DNA of 64,000 bases from Candidatus Collinsella stercoripullorum (lineage in GTDB: Bacteria > Actinomycetota > Coriobacteriia > Coriobacteriales > Coriobacteriaceae): the NCBI GenBank assembly GCA_019117005.1, contig DXAO01000013.1, positions 1 through 64,000 of the forward strand. The letters run 5' to 3'. The first letter of the stretch is position 1; every line of letters starts with the position of its first letter. The notes beneath the pieces were generated by a model that saw nothing but the letters and a program-made list of their open reading frames with translations, was not told the origin of the DNA and made no database searches. Shown here piece by piece: positions 18,605-24,327 of the stretch. Position numbers and translations under genes: made by a program.

Positions 18605-19441
18605 CTACGATTCGGTGGCGGGCAGCCGTAACGCGCCACCCCGTCCCTCATGGAGATGGTACCGTTTCGCGAAATCGCTTTTGACGTAGTCCATGAAGCG
18701 CTGGGCTATCGCAGACGGCTGCTCTCCCAGAAGCCAGGTGAAGCCGATGGTCGAGTAGAGCGGCTTGTCGAACGAGATGCACGCGATATCGGTCGCCTGA
18801 TAGGTGGTCACCAGGCGCCGCGAGAGGACCGAGGTCCCCATGTGATGCTGGACCGCCTTGATGAGCATGCGGTGTCGCGTGTGGTGCAACGGGGAATTTG
18901 GGTTGAATCCCTCCGCATTGCAGGCGCTGAGGAACATCTTGGTCACCTCGGACTGCTCCTCGAGCAGGATGAAGCGCTCGTTTCTGAGCTCGCCTACGTC
19001 AATTCGCTCGCGTTCGGCAAGGGGATGGTCGGAGGGGCACACCAAGACGAGCTCGTCTTGGACGATATCGGTGTACTCGAACCAGTCCTCATCCAAGAAA
19101 TCGGTGCGGGCGAGCGCGATGTCGATCTTGTTCCGCTTGAGCTTGTCGAGCAGGTCGTTCTGGTTGCGCTCGTAGAATTTGATCTGAACCGACGTGTTGC
19201 GCACCCGGTACGCGGCGAAGCACTCGGCGAACCCGTATTCCTCGGTAAGGGGCAGGGCGCCCATGGAGAGGACGAAGGTGGATTCCCTTTTGTACTGCTG
19301 CAGATGCGCCACCTCGTGCTGATATTCGGGTAGCGCCTTGCGCACGTAGCCGTAGAAGTCGCGTCCCGCCTGGGTGAGCTCTATCCCCGATCTCGTTTTC
19401 TTGAACAGCTTGACGCCGAGCTCCCGTTCGAGCTGAGACAT
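18605..19441 (-). pseudogene. LysR-family regulator lacking the first half of its HTH
   Basis: The effector-binding domain of a LysR-type regulator is complete (FVLSMGALPLTEEYGFAECF, IDIALARTDFL, LVLVCPSDHPLA, FILLEEQSEVTKMFL). The first in-frame ATG, at 19441, is inside the DNA-binding domain. Reading further upstream gives FSQSSLSKQ just before MSQLERELGVKLF, which is the recognition helix. The first about 22 residues (helix 1 and the start of helix 2) are missing, replaced by sequence of the divergent transporter gene. The junction is near 19466-19471. DNA binding should be impaired. The intact form probably controlled the transporter and the decarboxylase genes to the right, in the usual divergent LysR arrangement. 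Confidence 0.75.
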
Positions 19442-19467
19442 CTGCTTAGAAAGGGAGGACTGCGAGA

Positions 19468-20651
19468 ATGTGCATATTCCAGCTCGATGAGCCGGCCGAG
19501 ATCTTCTATGCGTGGACGGGTACCACGATGTGGCTCGTCATAGGTGCCTATCTGATCGCCAACGCCGTGCAGACCTCGGGACTGGGCGAGCGCATCGCAT
19601 ATAGCTACATGCTTCGCTTCGTCACCGGGTTCAAGAGCATCATCGTCGGCATCTTCGCGCTCACCGCGATCCTGTCGCTGCTCATCCCACATCCCTGGCC
19701 GCGCGCCTTCCTGATCATGGCGGTCATGGCCGTCATCATCAAGAGCTCCGGCATCTCGGCCGGCGCGCCGTCAAGATCGGCTTTGCCGTCTTCGCCGCCT
19801 CTGTGCCCTGCTCGCTCATCTTCATCACGGGCGACGCGGTGATCAATCCGCTTGCCGCCTCCTATGCGGGCGGTGCGGACTTCGTGACCTGGTTCAAGGT
19901 CATGGGCGTTCCCGCCATCATCATGAGCGTCATCACCCTGGTGCTCTTCCTGCTGCTTTTCCGTGCGGAGAAGGACTACGCTGTCGACAAGGAGGCGATT
20001 CGCGTCAAGCTCGCCGAAATGGGCAAGATGAGCGTCGTTGAGATCAAGACCATCGTCTGGGTCGTTCTCGCCATCGTCCTGTGGCTCACCGAGTCCATCC
20101 ACGGCATCGATATCGGCTGGGTCACCTTCGCGGTCGGTATGCTCATGAGCATGCCCATCGTCGGCGACCTCAACGCCGCCAAGGATTGGAGCGCCGTCCC
20201 CATCCACGTGCTCGTCTTCCTGACCGCCGCTATGGCCATCGGCCACGTTGGTGCTGACACTGGCATGAACGCTTGGATCGCGTCCTTCATGCCCACCACC
20301 GTGCCCGACAACATGTTCCTTGTCGCGGCGATCATCGTTGCCCTGTCCTTCGTCATCCACATGCTGCTCGGGTCCGTCATCGCCGTCATGGGCGTTGCCG
20401 TCCCCGCCATCCTGGCCTTCGCTGAGCCGCTGGGCATCGACCCCATGGTTGCCACGATGATCTGCTACATGGCCGTCGCGGCGCACTACCTCTTCCCCTT
20501 CCAGCACCTCAACACGCTGGTTGGAGCGAGCCCCGATACGGGTAACTACACCCAGAAGGAGACCTTGAGGCTCGGAATCGTCTTGATTCCCTTCCTGTTC
20601 GTCATCGCGTGGATCATGGTCGGCTGGTTCATGATCATCGGCTTGGCTTGA
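19468..20651 (+). pseudogene. DASS/SLC13 anion transporter, 5'-truncated and frameshifted
   Basis: The frame from 19468 encodes part of a divalent-anion:sodium symporter (AWTGTTMWLVIGAYLIANAV, GLGERIAYSYMLRF, PHPWPRAFLIMAVMAVIIKS). It breaks near 19764-19770 and continues in another frame to 20651 (VKIGFAVFAASVPCSLIFIT, then the last seven or so helices, ending GWFMIIGLA). Restoring one base in GGCGCGCCG rejoins the frames. The usual first 60-70 residues, with one or two helices, are absent. The 5' end abuts the truncated LysR gene head to head. It was probably the aromatic-acid importer for the neighbouring decarboxylase. The single-base break could be a sequencing error; the 5' loss could not. 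Confidence 0.75.
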
Positions 20652-20806: not shown

Positions 20807-21382
20807 ATGGAAAGCAAGAAGCGCATCATCGTAGGCGTGAGCGGGGCCACGGGCGTTCAGCTCGCGCTCTACCTCATGCGGGCGCTCGCGGGATACGATG
20901 AGGTCGAGACGCACCTCGTGGTGAGCGACGGTGCCAAGAAGACCTGGGAGCTCGAGTGTCAAGAGCCCATCGACGAGCTGCTCGACCTCGCCGACGTGGT
21001 CCATGACTCTCACAACCTGGCGGCGTCCATCTCCAGCGGCTCGTTCGTGACCTCGGGCATGGTCGTCATGCCGTGTTCCATGAAGACGCTTTCCTCCATC
21101 GCGACCGGGTATGCCGACAACTTGGTCTCGCGTGCGGCCGATGTCTGCCTCAAGGAGGGGCGCCGCGTGGTGCTCGTGCCGCGCGAGATGCCCTTGGGCA
21201 AGATCCACGTGCGCAACATGCTCGCCGCGGCGGATGCCGGGTGCGTGCTCGTCCCGCCCATGCTCACCTTCTACAACGGCCCGATCACCCTCGACGATCA
21301 GATCTACCATGTCGTCGGCAAGGTGCTGCGCCAGTTTGGGCTCGAGCCCAAAGTCTTCCACGCTTGGGAGGGAGCCGAGTAG
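20807..21382 (+). CDS. lpdB: UbiX/LpdB flavin prenyltransferase
   Basis: A 191-residue UbiX-family enzyme of normal length. It joins dimethylallyl phosphate to FMN to make prenylated FMN, the cofactor of UbiD decarboxylases. Signatures are GVSGATG at residues 10-16 (flavin phosphate loop), VVMPCSMKTLSSIATG near 85-100 and LVPREMPLGKIHVRNM near 123-138. The ATG at 20807 has GAAGGGAAG upstream; longer upstream extensions lack support. It is followed after 80 bases by the UbiD gene, matching the lpdB-lpdC pairing of gallate decarboxylase loci. Codons are richer in C/T-ending preferred forms here, suggesting good expression. Confidence 0.93.
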   Translation: MESKKRIIVGVSGATGVQLALYLMRALAGYDEVETHLVVSDGAKKTWELECQEPIDELLDLADVVHDSHNLAASISSGSFVTSGMVVMPCSMKTLSSIATGYADNLVSRAADVCLKEGRRVVLVPREMPLGKIHVRNMLAAADAGCVLVPPMLTFYNGPITLDDQIYHVVGKVLRQFGLEPKVFHAWEGAE

Positions 21383-21462: not shown

Positions 21463-22929
21463 ATGTCCGTTAAGGTCAACGATCTCCGCAGTGCCATTGA
21501 GCTACTCAAGGGCATTCCGGGGCAGCTCGTCGAGACCGACGTCGAGGTCGAGCCGCTTGCCGAGCTCTCCGGCGTGTATCGTCACGTCGGTGCCGGCGGC
21601 ACCGTCATGCGCCCCACCAAAGAGGGTCCCGCGATGATCTTCAACAACGTCAAGGGTCATCCGGGCGCGAGCGTCATCATCGGTCTGCTTGCCAGCCGCA
21701 CCCGCGTGGGTTACCTGCTCGATTGCGATCCCAAGCGCCTCGGCTTCCTGCTCAAGGATGCCGTCAACGCCCCTATCGCTCCTGTCGTCACTGACGAGCC
21801 CGCGCCCTGTCAGGAAGTCGTCTACAAGGCCGACGACCCTGACTTCGACATCCGCAAGCTCATCCCGGCTCCGACTAACACCGAGGAGGATGCCGGCCCG
21901 TATATCACCATGGGTATGTGCTACGCCACCGACCCCGAGAACGGTGAGAAGGATATCACCATCCACCGTCTCTGCCTGCAGAGCAAGGACGAGATCTCGA
22001 TGTACTTCGTCCCCGGAGCGCGTCACCTCACCGTCTTCCGCGAGAAGGCCGAGAAGGCCGGCAAGCCGCTGCCCATCTCCATCTCCATCGGCGTCGACCC
22101 CGCCATCGAGATCGCCGCGTGCTTCGAGCCGCCCACCACGCCGCTCGGCTACAACGAGCTCGGCTGCGCCGGTGCCCTTCGTGGCGAGCCCGTCAAGCTG
22201 GCCCAGTGCCTGACCATCGACGAGCAGTGCATCGCCAACGCCGAGTATGTCATCGAGGGCGAGCTTCTGCCCGACGTCCGCGTGCGCGAGGACCAGAATA
22301 CCGACTCCGGCAAGGCCATGCCCGAGTTCCCCGGCTACACCGGTGGTGCCCAGGCCGCTCTGCCCGTGATCAAGGTCAAGGCCGTCACGACCCGCAAGAA
22401 CCCCATCATGCAGACGGTCATCGGCCCCTCCGAGGAGCACGTCAGCATGGCCGGTATCCCGACCGAGGCTTCGATCCTCACCATGGTCGAGCGCGCTCTG
22501 CCCGGCAAGGTGCAGAACGTCTACGCAGCTTCTCCTGGCGGTGGCAAGTACATGGCCGTCATCCAGTTCAAGAAGGAGATTCCCTCTGACGAGGGCCGTC
22601 AGCGTCAGGCCGCGCTGCTTGCCTTCTCCGCCTTCCCCGAGCTCAAGCATGTCTGGCTCGTGGACGAGGATGTCGACCTCTTCGACATCAAGGATGTCAT
22701 CTGGGCTATGAACACGCGCTTCCAGGCTGATATCGACGTCGTCACCATCCCCGGCGTCCGCTGCCACCCGCTCGATCCGTCCAACGATCCCACCTGTGAT
22801 CCGAGCATCCGCGATCACGGTATCGCCTGCAAGACGATCTTCGACTGCACGGTCCCGTTCGACCAGAAGCATCGTTTCCAGCGCTCCAAGTTCAAGGATG
22901 TCGACCCGACGCACTGGACCGAGGCGTAA
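21463..22929 (+). CDS. lpdC: UbiD-family LpdC-type hydroxyarylic acid (gallate) decarboxylase
   Basis: A 488-residue UbiD-family decarboxylase with AAAGGAGG before its ATG. It resembles, from memory of the family, the catalytic subunit LpdC of Lactiplantibacillus plantarum gallate decarboxylase along its whole length. Examples are TDVEVEPLAELSGVYRHVGA, GPAMIFNNVKG, FDIRKLIPAPTNT, DAGPYIT, FEPPTTPLGYNELG, MPEFPGYTGG and GPSEEHVSMAGIPTEASIL. Prenylated-FMN and metal contacts are expected around ITIHRL, GARHLT and the Glu of MPEFPGY. The likely reaction is non-oxidative decarboxylation of gallate or protocatechuate to pyrogallol or catechol. Exact substrate is inferred. A terminator follows, so the LpdD-like gene downstream is a separate transcript. 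Confidence 0.88.
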   Translation: MSVKVNDLRSAIELLKGIPGQLVETDVEVEPLAELSGVYRHVGAGGTVMRPTKEGPAMIFNNVKGHPGASVIIGLLASRTRVGYLLDCDPKRLGFLLKDAVNAPIAPVVTDEPAPCQEVVYKADDPDFDIRKLIPAPTNTEEDAGPYITMGMCYATDPENGEKDITIHRLCLQSKDEISMYFVPGARHLTVFREKAEKAGKPLPISISIGVDPAIEIAACFEPPTTPLGYNELGCAGALRGEPVKLAQCLTIDEQCIANAEYVIEGELLPDVRVREDQNTDSGKAMPEFPGYTGGAQAALPVIKVKAVTTRKNPIMQTVIGPSEEHVSMAGIPTEASILTMVERALPGKVQNVYAASPGGGKYMAVIQFKKEIPSDEGRQRQAALLAFSAFPELKHVWLVDEDVDLFDIKDVIWAMNTRFQADIDVVTIPGVRCHPLDPSNDPTCDPSIRDHGIACKTIFDCTVPFDQKHRFQRSKFKDVDPTHWTEA

Positions 22930-23036
22930 CCGATCGCATACGAGGCGCTTTCGTCGCCTAACCGGGCCGGTTGATCGGTCCGACATGCGCCTGAGCGCAT
23001 TGCCGGGCGTATGGGAGCATAGGCTTCCGCACGTGA

Positions 23037-23074
23037 GGGTCGGGCAGGCGGTATATGACCCCTGCCCGACCCTT
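23037..23074 (+). terminator. Rho-independent terminator of the lpdB-lpdC operon
   Basis: A 12-bp perfect stem (23037-23048 with 23061-23072), a 12-base loop, then a TTTT run. Confidence 0.85.
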
Positions 23075-23086
23075 TTCCCATAGGTC

Positions 23087-23122
23087 GTGCAGCTTATGAT
23101 ATCGTGCGTGCAAACGTGCACG
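23087..23122 (+). promoter_or_regulatory. Promoter and dyad before the LpdD-IDI gene
   Basis: A -10-like TATGAT near 23096 is followed at once by a dyad (TCGTGC, 10 bases, GCACGA) at about 23101-23122, which also contains GTGCA-AACG-TGCAC. A dyad just past a -10 suits a repressor site. The -35 box is not clear. Confidence 0.35.
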
Positions 23123-23218: not shown

Positions 23219-24163
23219 ATGGAGACGCGCACATTCAGCGTCGGCGAGGGCAAGTTCAAAGTCGACGTGACCATGGTCGATACTGGCAGGGGCGTGACCG
23301 TCACGGTGGGTTCGCGCGCTGCGGGAGCCGCGCATGTCGGCGCAACCGCCCAAGCGATTCCCCGGCCCGAGCCCGGTCGCACCGCCACGGTGAGCATACT
23401 CGCCGTTCCGTGCCATCGCGACGAGATCCCTGCCCATGACATCGCGGCGATCGTGGCCACGGCGCTGAGAGTGCCCGTGACGGCGACCTGCGGCATCCAT
23501 GTGGATGACGCCTCGAAAGAGGATATCGCCCAGCTCGTGGACGTGTGCCGCCAGGTGGGCGAGCGCGTCATCGAATGCTCGGAGCGGATCCGCCGTGCGC
23601 GCTGGGACGACCAGGACGGGGTCGTGACGGTCGACGAGACCGGAACGGTGACGGGCAGCGTCGAGCGCGTCGAGGCTCATGCTGGCGACGGCATCCTGCA
23701 CCAGGCCTTCTCGATCTATCTGGTCGAGGGGGAGGGCCCGGATGCCAAGCTGTTGCTGTGCCGCCGCGCTGCCGGCAAGCGCCTTTGGGGCGGTGTGCTC
23801 GCGGATACCTGTGCCGGGCACCCCAAGGAGGGCGAGGCGCTCGCGGCGGCCGCCGAGCGCAGGCTGAAGGAGGAGACGGGCGCTACCGCCGCCTTGACGT
23901 CGCTGGGCCATATCGTCTATCGCGAGGATCACGGTGACGGATTCTGCGAGTGCGAATGGTGCGAGGTCTTCTGCGGGCGGACCTCCGAGCGGCTGCACAT
24001 CAACGAGGAGGAGATCAGCGAGGTACGTCGCGTCTCGCTCGCGGAGCTCGACGGGTATCTTCAGGGTCGTCCCGAGCAGCTTGCCCCTTGGACGCGCATC
24101 GCGCTCTCCGATCCGGCCATCAGGGCCGAGCTCGCGCGTTTCGCCGGCCAGGGCGACCAGTAG
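23219..24163 (+). CDS. Fusion of LpdD-like prenyl-FMN chaperone domain with type 1 IPP isomerase
   Basis: A 314-residue two-domain protein; ATG 23219 has GGAAGG upstream. Residues 1-120 match LpdD, the small third protein of gallate decarboxylase loci (TFSVGEGKFKVDVTMVDTG, then AHVG, CHRDEIPAHDIAAIVA, ATCGIHVDDASKEDI). Residues about 130-300 are a type 1 isopentenyl-diphosphate isomerase of the Nudix fold. His154, His161, His201, Glu244 and Glu246 sit where E. coli Idi has metal ligands, a Nudix-type box spans 200-222, and Trp291 is conserved. The Cys lies in TCAGHP (Cys198), one place earlier than in the usual CGHP. The isomerase would make DMAPP, the prenyl source for UbiX. It follows lpdB-lpdC. 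I know of no description of this fusion. Confidence 0.85.
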   Translation: METRTFSVGEGKFKVDVTMVDTGRGVTVTVGSRAAGAAHVGATAQAIPRPEPGRTATVSILAVPCHRDEIPAHDIAAIVATALRVPVTATCGIHVDDASKEDIAQLVDVCRQVGERVIECSERIRRARWDDQDGVVTVDETGTVTGSVERVEAHAGDGILHQAFSIYLVEGEGPDAKLLLCRRAAGKRLWGGVLADTCAGHPKEGEALAAAAERRLKEETGATAALTSLGHIVYREDHGDGFCECEWCEVFCGRTSERLHINEEEISEVRRVSLAELDGYLQGRPEQLAPWTRIALSDPAIRAELARFAGQGDQ

Positions 24164-24285
24164 ACGGGACGATCGGCGCCCTTGGGGGCTCCGCGCCGCG
24201 CGGTCGAGCTGCCCGGCGCGGTCGATGCGCCGCCGGGCGCGTCCCCCGCGATGCGCCGGTCCCCGCTGCAAGATAGCCGGTTTTC

Positions 24286-24327
24286 AGGACCGTGGGCAAC
24301 CGAATGCGCCCGCGGTCCTGCTCTTTT
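24286..24327 (+). terminator. Terminator after the LpdD-IDI gene
   Basis: A 12-bp stem (24286-24297 with 24308-24319, one T-G pair) is followed by GCTCTTTT. Confidence 0.75.

Follow-up and report, generated by a model that had tools for sequence, protein, structure and literature searches.

An LpdD chaperone domain fused to an IPP isomerase-like domain without its catalytic cysteine in a ubiX-ubiD cluster of Collinsella

In the window analysed here, a 64,000-nucleotide stretch of Candidatus Collinsella stercoripullorum (contig DXAO01000013.1), a single gene joins an LpdD domain, the predicted chaperone of reduced prenylated FMN (prFMNH2), to a domain derived from type 1 IPP isomerase (IDI) in which the deprotonating cysteine of that enzyme has been replaced. 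This LpdD-IDI-like fusion is a new form of the UbiX-LpdD-UbiD system. We somewhat favour the reading that it is a prFMN-supply protein whose IDI-derived domain handles the C5 prenyl donor without the Cys67-dependent isomerisation. A search of open-access papers yielded no description of an LpdD-IDI fusion, in agreement with the first-pass annotation of this DNA, which had regarded it as apparently undescribed.

The fusion gene and its neighbours

The following features were assigned in and around the locus:

18605-19441, minus strand: LysR-type regulator, N-terminus missing
19468-20651, plus strand: carboxylate transporter of the DASS/Na-sulfate-symporter type, N-terminus missing, one frameshift
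20807-21382, plus strand: ubiX, flavin prenyltransferase (family score; His at PaUbiX position 181)
21463-22929, plus strand: ubiD, AroY/LpdC-type (closest solved relative 5ny5, 669 bits)
23036-23073, plus strand: hairpin preceding a short T run, in the gap between ubiD and the fusion gene (-32.6 kcal/mol, z -6.4)
23219-24163, plus strand: LpdD-IDI-like fusion gene, 314 aa in a single frame
24285-24320, plus strand: hairpin followed by CTCTTTT, 3' of the fusion gene, terminator candidate (z -2.9)

The fusion gene opens with ATG at 23219, ends with a stop codon at 24161-24163 and has no internal stops; this start was preferred to an alternative GTG at 23087 because the homologues open at METRTF or MHT. 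Full-length fusions are present in 18 of the 67 genomes of the family (Collinsella/Enorma), covering 3 genera and including 13 named Collinsella and Enorma loci, and the relatives share 51-70% identity with the protein. In the LpdD half as well as in the IDI-like half, dN/dS (where estimable) is about 0.05-0.3, indicating purifying selection. A frameshift artefact merging two genes, which had been named at the outset as a possible flaw, can be discarded in view of this selection and of the 18 full-length copies in separate genomes; the coordinates, start and frame first given for one open frame across both domains are correct. When plasmids were searched with the fusion, no full-length match was obtained, and the matches listed comprised standard IDIs only.

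As had been described from the sequence, ubiX and an LpdC-type ubiD adjoin the fusion gene, both on its upstream side. The UbiD protein has the three-domain UbiD architecture with AroY and VdcC as closest relatives, 5ny5 being an AroY 3,4-dihydroxybenzoate decarboxylase, and the UbiX protein passes the family score with the catalytic residues E49, E140 and Y169 present. UbiX positions were counted on what we take to be the PaUbiX reference sequence, which agrees with the published residue numbers F181, Y169, E49 and E140. Every UbiX of these clusters that covers the column has His at position 181. This position is Phe in the DMAP-specific enzyme of P. aeruginosa and Gln in the DMAPP-specific fungal enzyme, and the His181 enzyme O157 UbiX accepts both DMAPP and DMAP, DMAPP better (PMC6541611). 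By this residue the cluster UbiX proteins look DMAPP-capable, and position 181, being His and not Phe, was rejected as a sign of a need for DMAP, which would not be strictly required because O157 UbiX carries the same His.

The strong hairpin between ubiD and the fusion gene is a terminator or attenuator candidate and suggests a separate or attenuated fusion transcript; a consensus scan did not list it. At the far side of the cluster, about 2.39 kb that Collinsella sp. An2 (L031) has is missing from the window at 19467|19468. The missing segment comprises a second UbiD-like gene together with the 5' ends of the genes for the LysR regulator and the DASS transporter; the transporter gene also contains a single-base frameshift, in the interval from about 19758 to 19803. 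Truncation and frameshift (19441-19810) reflect either real decay or an assembly error.

Fold and residues of the two domains

Within the fusion gene, the following segments were assigned, all on the plus strand:

23246-23575, plus strand: LpdD (PAC_bac) prFMNH2-chaperone domain, residues 10-119 (homology, profile, model)
23333-23335, plus strand: His39, equivalent to the metal-site His35 of L. plantarum LpdD (alignment)
23414-23422, plus strand: His66-Arg-Asp68, equivalent to LpdD His61/Asp63 (alignment)
23609-24142, plus strand: IDI-like Nudix domain, residues 131-308 (NCBIfam, Pfam, alignment, model)
23804-23815, plus strand: Asp196-Thr-Cys198-Ala199, with E. coli IDI Asn64 replaced by Asp and catalytic Cys67 by Ala
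23816-23884, plus strand: Nudix box GHPKEGEALAAAAERRLKEETGA, complete except that the first Glu of REUxEE is Arg

The assignment of residues 1-120 to LpdD was confirmed at residues 10-119, which match Pfam PAC_bac (PF21758, 4.3e-24; LpdD/proteasome-chaperone fold). A profile of 30 relatives of the family matched the solved LpdD of L. plantarum (8po5, 8pzh, 8p4w; 4.5e-13), and when the domain was modelled with AlphaFold2 (pLDDT 94.9), its top PDB match was LpdD (TM 0.77, 8e-8), with proteasome assembly chaperones as the next matches. The metal-site residues H35, H61 and D63 are kept as H39, H66 and D68; in L. plantarum, His35 is required for prFMNH2 binding, and LpdD binds prFMN in its reduced form only and assists the activation of UbiD (PMC10865409). 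Judged by homology and these key residues, the N-terminal half is a true LpdD with a predicted activity on prFMNH2. In both organisms LpdD is encoded in the neighbourhood of a UbiD decarboxylase, but L. plantarum LpdD is a separate small protein whereas that of the window is fused to the IDI-derived domain.

For homology and fold, the likeness of residues 130-300 to type 1 IDI likewise holds. Residues 131-308 match the NCBIfam IDI model NF002995 with 144.6 bits (cut-off 127), residues 161-285 match Pfam NUDIX (2.6e-16), and a model of the full-length fusion (pLDDT 94.9, pTM 0.85) resembles E. coli IDI structures with TM 0.87-0.89. In E. coli numbering, His25, His32, Arg51, Lys55, His69, Arg83, Glu87, Tyr104, Glu114, Glu116 and Trp161 are kept near-universally in the IDI-like domain, the single exceptions being H25Y in L083 and R83H in L079; the window protein retains the metal ligands H25, H32, H69 and E114 together with the catalytic Glu116 and Tyr104. 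Compared with E. coli Idi (1nfs/1hx3/1ow2), the fold, metal site, diphosphate ligands, Glu116, Tyr104 and Trp161 are thus common, but Cys67 is replaced by Ala or Ser and Asn64 by Asp. The alignment runs without gaps around this motif. Among 57 IDI-type sequences of the class, both replacements were found in 14/14 cluster members (the fused clade and its standalone sister), and Cys67 and Asn64 are kept in all 43 others. As the conserved Cys of type 1 IDI deprotonates the substrate and a Glu protonates it (PMC3509576), its loss means that IPP isomerisation by the known mechanism is most likely absent.

K21R was dropped as a diagnostic residue, Arg or Val being found there in some complete actinobacterial IDIs. 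In the wider phylum, three of the best 27 matches outside the family lack Cys67, all of them as C67S and none near ubiX; such Ser-type proteins, with Thr or Ala at Asn64 and no ubiX nearby, occur in other actinobacterial families at L158, L159 and L160 (genomes G505, G485 and G621). The equivalog NF002995 accepts the Cys67-less domain above its cut-off, so that automated pipelines would label the domain an isomerase.

Against the Nudix motif GX5EX7REUXEEXGU (PMC6112128), the box of the window protein differs only by Arg215 at the first Glu of REUXEE. This Arg makes hydrolysis of DMAPP an uncertain prediction. The box, Arg included, is shared by complete IDIs of the class and is therefore no marker of a change in function; the 'restored' Glu-Glu of the box was dropped as a sign of a hydrolase, most complete IDIs of the class having it too.

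Distribution of the fusion and recruitment of IDI-type proteins

Of the 18 fusion genomes, 16 have both UbiX and UbiD, and 6 relatives with no full fusion and no LpdD have neither; G027, with a fragment of the fusion gene only, has neither. Whether the fusion always lies beside lpdB/lpdC, a check named at the outset, can thus be answered with a near yes: G012 (L188) and G008 (L189) carry an intact fusion, but neither UbiX nor UbiD was detected in these two genomes. The intact fusion is likewise kept at the Collinsella locus L041. Over the class, an IDI-like domain occurs in 40/52 genomes with LpdD against 36/346 without, counts that are uncorrected for kinship. In the class outside the order of the window, 7/7 genomes of families f11/f12 have a standalone IDI-like gene with C67A in a ubiX-lpdD-ubiD cluster. 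The gene order of these clusters differs from that of the fusion locus, and most of them, where the contig extends that far, also include genes for a DASS transporter and for another UbiD-like protein. In four of the seven (L079, L082, L083, L084), a full ribBA (DHBP synthase and GTP cyclohydrolase II, riboflavin biosynthesis) adjoins the IDI-like gene. Like the LpdBCD/AroY-type UbiX-UbiD systems, the cluster in the window combines ubiX, an AroY/VdcC-like ubiD and LpdD; it adds the IDI-derived partner and the DASS transporter, and some relatives further add ribBA and the second UbiD-like gene.

IDIs with Cys67 are also found in such clusters. In family f2, which belongs to the order of the window, a Cys-containing IDI adjoins lpdD in the ubiX clusters of G163, G173, G206, G293 and G392, and adjoins ubiX in G251. 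In G346 of the same family, LpdD is fused to a Cys-containing, apparently complete IDI (L152 901-1902 and L190 7309-8376, minus strand) beside ubiX, a transporter and ubiD; as G346 is a single draft genome of 88% completeness, its fusion needs checking. In the tree, support is 99/92 for a group of all Cys67-less proteins and 99/95 for a clade that unites the C67A proteins, 7 fused and 7 standalone. The ubiX-linked IDIs with Cys67 branch among the normal IDIs of the order (100/99). The wide separation of the Cys-less and Cys-containing groups therefore points to at least two recruitments of IDI to the prFMN cluster. On these phylogenetic grounds, an IDI-type protein has joined the cluster at least twice and has probably been fused to LpdD twice.

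Proposed role in prFMN supply and alternatives

The link of the fusion to prenyl-donor supply, proposed at first from the window alone, is strengthened by the unfused cluster partners, by ribBA in some clusters and by the second, independent recruitment and fusion of an IDI. The fusion protein would be a dedicated part of prFMN supply for an AroY/LpdC-type UbiD decarboxylase, its LpdD half binding prFMNH2 from the neighbouring UbiX and handing it to apo-UbiD. The IDI-derived half most likely binds a C5 prenyl diphosphate, because its metal site is kept along with the prenyl pocket and the residues that contact the diphosphate. It would probably serve UbiX by preparing or holding its prenyl donor, whether as a Nudix enzyme that hydrolyses DMAPP to DMAP or as a domain for DMAPP binding or docking. 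Donor handling and product capture would thereby be united in one chain. The hydrolase form accounts for perhaps half of the likelihood that we give to donor handling. Because the cluster UbiX proteins have His181, supply or hand-over of DMAPP would suffice, with the step to DMAP possible and optional. In E. coli, NudB, NudF, NudI and NudJ convert DMAPP to DMAP, which is used for prFMN (PMC12359138; PMC6058358). E. coli NudB and NudJ have the Nudix fold in common with the IDI-like domain, and supply of DMAP for prFMN is the proposed shared role, but they belong to another Nudix subfamily and are not fused to LpdD, of which E. coli has no homologue (PMC10865409). It is conceivable, though we consider it rather doubtful, that loss of the Cys and the change of Asn64 to Asp turned an IDI into a DMAPP-specific hydrolase or donor-delivery domain that was later fused to the prFMNH2 chaperone. 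Against donor handling, its ligand and chemistry are predictions, the fusion is kept in two genomes without UbiX and UbiD, C67S relatives lie away from ubiX, and the strong hairpin lies between ubiD and the fusion gene.

According to the first-pass annotation, the C-terminal domain converts IPP into DMAPP for UbiX. Such an active isomerase, perhaps with the invariant Cys198 or another base, appears unlikely to us, even though the domain exceeds the IDI equivalog cut-off with all residues listed above apart from Asn64 and Cys67 in place, complete IDIs have entered ubiX-lpdD clusters independently, and the UbiX proteins look able to use DMAPP. The mechanism assigns deprotonation to the very Cys that is Ala or Ser in 14/14 cluster members, which also have Asp for Asn64. 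Cys198 corresponds to E. coli position 66, which is Val in that enzyme and Cys, beside Cys67, in most complete IDIs; it is therefore not a specific substitute. IspH yields both IPP and DMAPP. It was found in 20/20 genomes tested, so that DMAPP is supplied independently of IDI by the MEP pathway, and unlike E. coli Idi, the IDI-like gene is dedicated to a ubiX-lpdD-ubiD cluster in such MEP-pathway organisms. The claim of isomerisation in the normal way is thus unsupported, and of the self-sufficient cofactor module first suggested, dedicated prFMN supply together with ubiX and ubiD is supported while a donor made by ordinary IPP isomerisation is not.

A catalytically dead domain that binds no prenyl diphosphate, serving only as scaffold, dimer partner or dock for UbiX or UbiD, seems slightly less probable still. 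In its favour, the catalytic Cys is gone and LpdD crystallised as a dimer (PMC10865409), but retention of the other metal and substrate ligands of IDI over deep divergence would be odd in a pure scaffold, and purifying selection acts on the domain. That the domain hydrolyses a Nudix substrate other than a C5 prenyl diphosphate, for instance a damaged cofactor or a flavin nucleotide (FAD to FMN), is very improbable despite its Nudix fold, the near-complete Nudix box and ribBA as a source of flavin inside some clusters, as the conserved positions belong to the small pocket in which IDI accommodates C5 diphosphates.

The rather doubtful reading of a Cys-less IDI turned DMAPP-specific hydrolase or donor-delivery domain would, if true, represent a new type of enzyme derived from an IPP isomerase, with one protein feeding the donor to UbiX and collecting the product. 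The Cys-less IDI subfamily, scoring above the IDI equivalog cut-off, is likely misannotated as isomerase. Active preparations of many UbiD enzymes are difficult to obtain, and the provision of the prenyl donor and the transfer of prFMNH2 to apo-UbiD are poorly known; the fusion and the related clusters, which bring together ubiX, lpdD, ubiD, a gene for the IDI-derived protein and in some cases ribBA, suggest a complete, co-expressible module for cofactor supply.
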